Positions 24,615-26,036 of a stretch of 64,000 bases of DNA are shown here, piece after piece. The notes below the pieces were generated by a model. That model ran no database searches. It saw only the letters and a program-made list of their open reading frames with translations, and had not been told where the DNA came from. Origin of the DNA: Terasakiella sp. SH-1 (GTDB lineage: Bacteria; Pseudomonadota; Alphaproteobacteria; Rhodospirillales; Terasakiellaceae); the NCBI RefSeq assembly GCF_004564135.1, contig NZ_CP038255.1:3025501-3089500 (forward strand), read 5' to 3'. The position numbers and the translations under genes are program-made. Positions within the stretch are counted from its first letter, which is position 1. The number at the start of each line of letters is the position of its first letter.

Positions 24615-25625
24615 ATGGCAACTGACTCGAGCGAAGACTTCTTTCAGGCAATCCGCGAAGCGGTCGGCCATACATTGGAAATGGCCGAAGCAGATGCCAA
24701 AATCTCAGATGAAACCAAAGACCTTCTCTCCCAACTGATTTTAACCCGTCGTGGCGATGGTGAAATTGTTTTGGACATGAGCGCCCACCAACGCATGAAA
24801 GCCGGCGAAAACAGCTGGGTGAATAAAGAACGCACCGAACAGGACCGTTTTGTAAACCCAACCCGTCTGCCCCAACTGGTTCCCGGTCTTTCTGGGCTAA
24901 CATCCGGGCAATATCTTGCCTATGTTCAACGCCCGCTTGACCGCAATGGCGACAATGCCCCTTTCTTATTAAAAGAAACCCTGCGCCTGTGCCGGGGGTA
25001 TCACCCAAAAGAAAAAGCAGCCGAACGCAATAAACTCTTTGGGCAAATCCAGCGCTATGTCGCCAAAACCCTGATTGACCAGATTTTATCTGATGAACAT
25101 AAAATTAATGATCAGGCAGAACTCGATAAACTGCGCACAGCCACTTCGCCCCAACAACAATTTGAAATGGCGTCCAGTGTTTTGAACATTCCAACAGCAG
25201 AAGTGATGAACCGAATGTTCAAATATGCGGTCGCGATCCACAATATAGATCGGATCAAGGCCAAGGCCATTCAGATTAAAAAAGCTCAGGAAAAGTTTGA
25301 ACTGCTCTTGCGCAAGCTAGCCAACAGTGACAGCGGGCCATCGGCCACAACGCGGGTCAAAGAAATTTTCCTCGGCTTTAAAAAAGAACTGGCTCTGATG
25401 GATAAACAAGTTGCCTACCTTGGTGGACAGTGCCTGCAACCGATCATCACCAAGATGCATCGCGACAGTTTTGATGAACAGTTCCTTGAACTGCACCGCC
25501 ATGGGGCACGTCTGGATGCCATGGCATCTCGTTGGGTTATTATTTTTAACGAAGCCAACAATCAAGACAATATCCGCAATACCGTTGAGCGAATCAAAGG
25601 CATGCATAAAGTCTTCACAAACTGA
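24615..25625 (+). CDS. Conserved-looking helical protein of unknown function
   Basis: A 336-residue protein I do not recognise. It has no signal peptide or membrane segment. Prediction by eye gives mostly helix: an acidic N-terminus (MATDSSEDFFQAIREAVGHTLEMAE), a middle segment with GQYLAYVQRPLDRNGDNAPFLLKETLRLCRGYHPKEKAA, and long amphipathic helices around ATTRVKEIFLGFKKELALMDKQ and DAMASRWVIIFNEANNQDN that may form coiled coils. AAGGG before the ATG is a plausible ribosome site. It stands alone, divergent from the FKBP-rhodanese gene and upstream of the candidate small RNA. No function is proposed. Confidence 0.7.
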   Translation: MATDSSEDFFQAIREAVGHTLEMAEADAKISDETKDLLSQLILTRRGDGEIVLDMSAHQRMKAGENSWVNKERTEQDRFVNPTRLPQLVPGLSGLTSGQYLAYVQRPLDRNGDNAPFLLKETLRLCRGYHPKEKAAERNKLFGQIQRYVAKTLIDQILSDEHKINDQAELDKLRTATSPQQQFEMASSVLNIPTAEVMNRMFKYAVAIHNIDRIKAKAIQIKKAQEKFELLLRKLANSDSGPSATTRVKEIFLGFKKELALMDKQVAYLGGQCLQPIITKMHRDSFDEQFLELHRHGARLDAMASRWVIIFNEANNQDNIRNTVERIKGMHKVFTN

Positions 25626-25782
25626 TAATACCTTCAACCTGCGTTATACATTTATCAGGGCCTTTTATCCTTTCATCCGCTCACCAGATGGTTGTGTTAT
25701 CTATGGCGATAAGAAAAAAGCATAACCCCCTAAGGAATGATACGTAACATTTTTTTATAGAAAAATCAGTGGGTTCGGTTAT

Positions 25783-25788
25783 TATACT
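25783..25788 (+). promoter_or_regulatory. Possible -10 box of a small RNA gene
   Basis: TATACT at 25783-25788, 5 of 6 matches to the sigma-70 -10 consensus, just before the series of hairpins. No convincing -35 box lies 16-18 bases upstream, so this is tentative. Confidence 0.3.
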
Positions 25789-25794
25789 AGACAT

Positions 25795-25950
25795 CTATTC
25801 CGCCGATCTCATCGGTTCTAAAATTGAAATCTTAGATTGAAATTTTGAGCCGATACCTTTTTCGGGCTTTGCCCGAATCAGAGCGCCTAGAAGCTAGAGA
25901 TAGCTTCTAACTAACTTTCAAGCCGATCCTTGTGATCGGCTTCTTTTTTG
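25795..25950 (+). ncRNA. Candidate structured small RNA, unassigned
   Basis: About 155 bases with no open frame of use, holding four successive stem-loops and ending in an intrinsic terminator. H1 (25811-25854) pairs ATCGGTTCTAAAATT with AATTTTGAGCCGAT, with one bulge and a small inner AATC/GATT stem. H2 is TTCGGGC/GCCCGAA (25861-25877). H3 is TAGAAGCTA/TAGCTTCTA (25888-25909). H4 is the terminator GCCGATC/GATCGGC (25922-25940) plus TTCTTTTTT. An alternative short stem CCGAT/ATCGG (25803-25815) competes with H1. It does not resemble 6S, tmRNA, SRP or RNase P RNA. A 3'-UTR-derived fragment of the upstream gene is an alternative origin. Confidence 0.55.
25920..25949 (+). terminator. Terminator of the candidate small RNA
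   Basis: GCCGATC (25922-25928) / GATCGGC (25934-25940), loop CTTGT, followed by TTCTTTTTT. Points away from the ccm operon, on the plus strand. Confidence 0.85.
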
Positions 25951-25958
25951 CCTATTTC

Positions 25959-26000
25959 CAAAAAACAAAGGCCCCTCCCAATAATATAAGAGGAGCCTTC
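25959..26000 (-). terminator. Terminator of the ccm operon
   Basis: Minus strand: AAGGCTCCTC ... GAGGGGCCTT (25999-25990 / 25977-25968, one mismatch) followed by TGTTTTTT. It lies 37 bases after the ccmI stop. Confidence 0.8.
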
Positions 26001-26036
26001 TTGCTCAGAACAGTTAAAGGGGAATCAGCCCTTCAT

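Follow-up and report, generated by a model that had tools for sequence, protein, structure and literature searches.

A conserved small RNA gene of the genus Terasakiella that most likely represents an undescribed family of trans-acting RNAs

In small RNAs, a pairing seed at the 5' end is usually recognised by bases that are both conserved and unpaired, and the enterobacterial RybB combines such an end with a divergent middle in a cell that holds Hfq. Other described RNAs are built on different plans: 6S RNA is one long bulged hairpin, and the protein-titrating RNAs of the CsrB/RsmZ kind are defined by several GGA motifs in hairpin loops. Among alphaproteobacterial small RNAs, suhB/mmgR (RF00519) is described by a model with UUUcCUCCC between two helices. 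Here, we analysed a window of 64,000 nucleotides from Terasakiella sp. SH-1 (contig NZ_CP038255.1), in which a first-pass annotation had proposed a new small RNA with four hairpins and competing folds at 25780-25950. The window's RNA gene is conserved in six genomes and most likely represents an undescribed family of trans-acting small RNA, assisted by Hfq.

The RNA reaches the threshold of none of the families that were searched for. With curated thresholds no Rfam family matches anywhere in the window, in line with the earlier impression that it fits no common RNA family. Lax thresholds gave ten matches, and the suhB model was the only one to fall on the RNA with E < 1, at 25.3 bits. This candidate was rejected, as the gathering threshold is 41 and a better locus exists elsewhere in all six genomes; these mmgR-like loci lie above the cut-off in five genomes and just under it, at 39 bits, in the window's own genome (G000). 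The latter locus (L081, G000:C1:2234082-2234158) is likely a true mmgR-like RNA. Several weaker matches of the same model, two of them about 200 bases apart, were noted at G000:C1:2569573-2569932; these are possibly further small RNAs of related kind, but the weak ones may be due to chance, as the suhB model also matched 8 of 14 control genomes. The 6S RNA model (RF00013) was set aside too, its sole match in the genome at E <= 0.001 lying at another locus (65.8 bits). In a literature search that covered few subscription papers, we found no paper that couples Terasakiella with small RNA or sRNA, and none that joins Rhodospirillales, sRNA and Hfq.

The RNA occupies a real gene-free gap of 411 bases (25626-26036), between a gene for a 336-aa protein on the plus strand (24615-25622, stop at 25625) and ccmI on the minus strand (from 26037). 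The run of stems followed by an intrinsic terminator is present there as first described, ahead of the terminator-like hairpin of the convergent ccm genes on the minus strand (hairpin 26000-25967), which marks a boundary outside the RNA. We place the small RNA at 25791-25949 of the plus strand, about 159 nt in length, with a predicted start at 25791 +/- 2. The RNA ends at the terminator T-run, which reaches 25949, and its start fits better at about 25791 than at 25780, because 25780-25789 holds the -10 region. The predicted -10 element, TATACT at 25783-25788 (+), was recognised from sequence and alignment; it reads TATAAT in three of the six species, lacks a good match in G004, and has no recognisable -35 element upstream. 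A promoter scan did not rise clearly above chance (3 found vs 1.5 expected). Further upstream stands a near-palindromic box, ATGATACGTAACAT at 25737-25750 (+) (ATGATACGTATCAT in G004), which is a putative site of a regulator and is preceded by CTAAGG at 25730-25735 (+).

This upstream region is conserved. In the six-species alignment TAAG and TACGTA of the box are invariant, the left half being degenerate in G002, and the stretch from the box to the -10 element is gapless in five species, with a single 1-base gap inside the -10 region of G004. Block identity is 0.77, vs 0.24 in the gapped stretch just upstream. The RNA gene thus appears to have its own promoter as well as its own intrinsic terminator, promoter activity being predicted from sequence. 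The box could be of the CRP/FNR or LacI-family type. Scans of the six genomes with the box patterns CTAAGNNATGATACGTA and CTARGGNNNNATACGTA gave no believable regulon. A recurrent match of CTAAGNNATGATACGTA lies inside a coding sequence that we take, from its translation, to be rpoB; CTARGGNNNNATACGTA found 25 sites vs 17 in the reversed control and was itself drawn partly from matches of CTAAGNNATGATACGTA, so the regulon claim was dropped.

The RNA gene is limited to the genus Terasakiella within these searches. A covariance model found one copy in each of six genomes (G000-G005), which we infer to be Terasakiella, with E-values from 1.8e-34 to 3.4e-31; an extra 21-bit match in G004 is the opposite strand of the same locus. 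Of the 317 genomes searched across the order, eight gave a match at E <= 0.1, namely these six and two judged to be chance (G013, E 0.034, and G159, E 0.046), which both lack the conserved 5' block as well as the CCTAGRAGCTAG block. When the class was sampled evenly, a single one of 385 genomes matched at E <= 0.01, and it was the window's own. No credible copy was therefore seen outside the genus in the 317 order genomes or the 385 class genomes, bearing in mind that covariance-model searches over more than 40 genomes use stricter filters by which weak matches can be lost. Other candidates were discarded as well: a BLAST match in G049 spans 23 bases only, and the three matches beyond the genus of a conserved 17-mer with one mismatch allowed (G010, G143 and G311) stand against more than 25 genomes matched by the reversed-pattern control. 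A genome pattern scan returned four records, from two Terasakiella and two metagenome genomes, and none of the viral contigs holds the most conserved block exactly.

The position of the gene among its neighbours argues for an independent unit. In all six genomes the downstream gene converges on the 3' end of the RNA, yet three different kinds of gene are found there: ccmI in the window genome, what we take from its sequence to be an asd-like gene in G001, and in the other four genomes genes for short, mutually related proteins, three of them 162 aa long and the fourth, in G003, encoded by an ORF of up to 185 aa. On the other side, the 336-aa gene always lies upstream on the same strand (6/6), at a distance of 157-165 nt in three genomes and of 401-418 nt in the other three. 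In three of the six species only, an ORF of 72-73 aa, with RPALRF near its start, separates the 336-aa gene from the RNA (L004, L005 and L006, reverse-complemented, about 1148-1404), and the long distances are those of the genomes where it occurs. Among 120 relatives, the six Terasakiella genomes alone were found to encode the 336-aa protein. It has no Pfam family and no PDB fold match at E <= 0.001; it is predicted to be helical from about residue 110 on, with the N-terminal 90 residues modelled at low confidence.

The constant placement on the same strand downstream of the 336-aa gene would be expected if the RNA were merely the 3' end of that gene's mRNA, as a 3'-UTR-derived RNA or an elaborate terminator. 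We regard this as quite improbable, since the RNA has its own conserved -10 region and upstream box, the gap ranges from 157 to 418 nt and holds another ORF in three species, and the conserved hairpins P2, P3 and P4 (described below) are unnecessary for termination. The convergent neighbour shows that the RNA is not the leader of a neighbouring gene, and the variable upstream distance and the inserted ORF show that it is not just the tail of the 336-aa gene. A small coding gene is probably not at hand either: the window RNA contains no ATG, and no frame of more than 28 codons is closed inside the RNA in any of the six sequences.

The RNA folds into a series of hairpins whose order is an unpaired 5' tail, P2, P3, a six-base linker, P4, a second linker and the intrinsic terminator (all on the plus strand). 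The predicted energy of 25793-25950 is -54.3 kcal/mol (z = -5.4), with none of 200 shuffles as stable, and z ranges from -3.9 to -6.3 across the six species. P2 (25811-25854) has 18 pairs, interrupted by one bulge and one internal loop, and its base reads AUCG/YGAU in the six species. P3 (25857-25881) consists of a 7-bp core and two outer pairs (CU/AG) outside an internal loop, and it is followed by the linker AGCGCC (25882-25887). P4 (25888-25909) is a 9-bp hairpin with a GNRA tetraloop in all six species (GAGA, GUGA, GGGA, GUGA, GAGA and GUAA). The terminator (25920-25949) is made of a 9-bp stem at 25920-25942 and the T-run; its stem is paired in 98.1% of cells across the six species. A simple terminator scan was not clearly beyond chance (3 found vs 1.5 expected).

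Covarying stems in relatives had been proposed as a check on this RNA, and they were found. In the alignment of the six sequences, G000-G005, 98.7% of 232 cells form standard pairs, a proportion that falls to 24-44% when the partners are slid. A double-sided change occurs in 10 of 39 pairs, with both P2 and P3 covarying, and this number was reached by 1 of 500 shuffles; the covariation score was reached by none of 500. The number of further pair types was not exceptional (55 of 500 shuffles reach it). RNAalifold alone arrives at these helices too, and of its 48 pairs 12 have a change on both sides in one sequence or more. Moreover, the structure conservation index is 1.02, vs 0.37 +/- 0.08 and a maximum of 0.60 in 200 column-shuffled alignments, against which the consensus energy has z = -14. 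Covariation says little about P4, where no pair is changed on both sides, or about the outermost three pairs of P2, which are constant. We conclude that the fold is under selection, for which six sequences are good but not deep evidence.

Structure is not the only thing that is kept. The 5' ten bases are invariant in 9 of 10 columns, the next ten likewise (9 of 10) and the linker in 6 of 6, and these parts are thus conserved like the stems or more. The variable parts are the P3 loop (1 of 6 columns invariant), the terminator loop (1 of 5) and the linker ahead of the terminator (0 of 12). Since the 5' tail and the AGCGCC linker are invariant or nearly so though mostly unpaired, while loops vary, the sequence of the RNA seems to be under selection beyond its structure. 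Not only the pairing of P4 but also its sequence is nearly invariant (17 of 22 columns), which is more than pairing alone needs, and this could point to a protein partner instead of mRNA targets. A structured RNA that titrates or guides a protein through the linker and the GNRA-capped P4, with no pairing to mRNA, would agree with the near-invariance of P4, the GNRA loop kept in six of six and the fully invariant linker. We nevertheless consider it unlikely, as the unpaired 5' tail is conserved as well as P4, a repeated GGA loop motif, as in CsrB/RsmZ, was not seen, and the genus-restricted 336-aa neighbour protein has no recognisable fold.

The linker may have a further part in the fold. Through pairing of its GCG with CGC at 25801-25803 it may close a three-way junction; this closure of P2 and P3, which is invariant, appears in the consensus fold, with a probability of 0.16-0.60 in the six sequences. 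One could imagine that the 5' two-thirds of the RNA make a compact junction, in which CGC/GCG (P1) closes P2 and P3, with the invariant strand CGAUCU, the invariant linker and the adjoining GNRA-capped hairpin, and that this domain binds a protein or small ligand and thereby exposes or hides the 5' seed. Such a ligand- or protein-gated trans-acting RNA seems to us very unlikely.

The competing folds of the first proposal were examined in the same alignment. The 5' stem CCGAT/ATCGG had been said to compete with the long stem for the same ATCGG, and GCCGAT to recur three times, as in a switching RNA. The stem is literally present, as an alternative hairpin GCCGAU/AUCGGU at 25802-25816 (+) that competes with P2 and shares AUCGG with it, and its pairs hold in 35 of 36 cells. 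In transcripts stopped at 30 nt it forms as well, six pairs long in five species and four pairs long in G002. In the full-length RNA, however, its probability is 0.00 in G000, 0.00 in G001, 0.08 in G003, 0.01 in G002 and 0.00 in G004, which makes it negligible at equilibrium in five of the six species; in G005 it is 0.41. Forcing it costs 1.4-6.1 kcal/mol in these five species and nothing in the sixth. The sole change that separates the two stems, at column 25 in G002, costs the 5' stem one pair but leaves the long stem intact. The three copies of GCCGAT do occur in G000, but the other five species have one each, and the repeat is private to the window genome.

A riboswitch or another leader acting in cis has a same-strand gene downstream, whereas here the downstream gene is convergent in six of six genomes and there is nothing in cis to switch. 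A riboswitch or attenuator that works by alternation of the 5' stem and the long stem is for these reasons extremely unlikely in our judgement, even with the shared AUCGG, the stem of the partial transcripts and the value in G005 on its side. The small RNA gene itself is supported and the switching is not; the 5' stem, minor or transient in these models, may be a passing folding intermediate.

The mode of action that we consider probable is that of an autonomous trans-acting small RNA of Terasakiella, which pairs with mRNAs through its 5' end with the help of Hfq. The 5' tail ACAUCUAUUC (25791-25800, +), possibly extending to about 25809, is the proposed target-pairing seed. Its ten bases have a mean unpaired probability of 0.88-0.99 in the six sequences, while bases 14-20 (0.36-0.92) and the linker (0.40-0.75) are less accessible; a tail both conserved and unpaired suggests a trans-acting RNA that pairs through its 5' end. 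Hfq is encoded in all six genomes. We infer that the RNA would be transcribed, on some inducing signal, from a promoter with a sigma-70-like -10 element, no recognisable -35 and an upstream palindromic site for a regulator, and that a transcript of about 159 nt would end at the intrinsic terminator. Its 5' end ACAUCUAUUCCGCCGAU, with ten leading bases that are predicted to be unpaired, would then base-pair with target mRNAs near their start sites, perhaps joined by the invariant linker AGCGCC. Bound Hfq would help this pairing, the hairpins would protect and present the RNA, and translation or stability of the targets would change in one direction or the other.

Two limited searches for complements of the seed gave no start site that recurs in orthologous genes. 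The first found 40 sites vs 27 in the control, six of them being the RNA itself; loci were available for 24 of the 34 other sites and 22 were read correctly (L094 and L112 were left out). Among them, the site at L113 (G003) is closely followed by a start codon, and that at L107 (G004) falls in the opening codons of an ORF. The second search found 41 sites vs 23 in the control, of which five were the RNA itself and the 36 others were all read. The complement ends in the ATG of a long ORF at L127 (G001) and at L136 and L153 (G005), in one genome each. The same holds at L152 (G000), where the ORF has 121 codons, but its counterpart L126 in G003 has only 34, and a site repeated in four genomes (L129, L155, L156 and L164) does not fall at a start. 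These sites are not evidence of targets. The start region of the 336-aa gene pairs with the RNA 5' end no better than shuffled sequence, its duplex energy ranking 51, 150, 67, 75, 173 and 84 of 200 shuffles in the six genomes.

Compared with the known systems, the best Rfam similarity is to suhB/mmgR and lies in the 3' half of the RNA (hairpin, linker and terminator), where CUUCUAACU, without CCUCCC, stands in place of the motif between the two helices of the model. 6S RNA has a similar length, but the RNA here is a series of hairpins. In contrast to CsrB/RsmZ, the window RNA has UUA, UUU and GAGA as its P2, P3 and P4 loops, and among the six P4 loops GGA is contained only in GGGA of G003. By description, the RNA resembles the enterobacterial OmrA/OmrB and RybB, in the conserved 5' end proposed as seed, the divergent middle and the presence of Hfq in the cell; with 159 nt, however, the RNA is about twice as long as OmrB (82 nt), and it has three hairpins ahead of the terminator. 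Within these searches the RNA is restricted to one genus and its 336-aa neighbour gene, among 120 relatives, to those six genomes; together these limits make the RNA useful for studying how small RNAs originate and are fixed. It is most likely an ordinary small regulatory RNA and no new kind of system, and it adds to Terasakiella a well-supported small RNA family with a concrete promoter, seed and structure to test.
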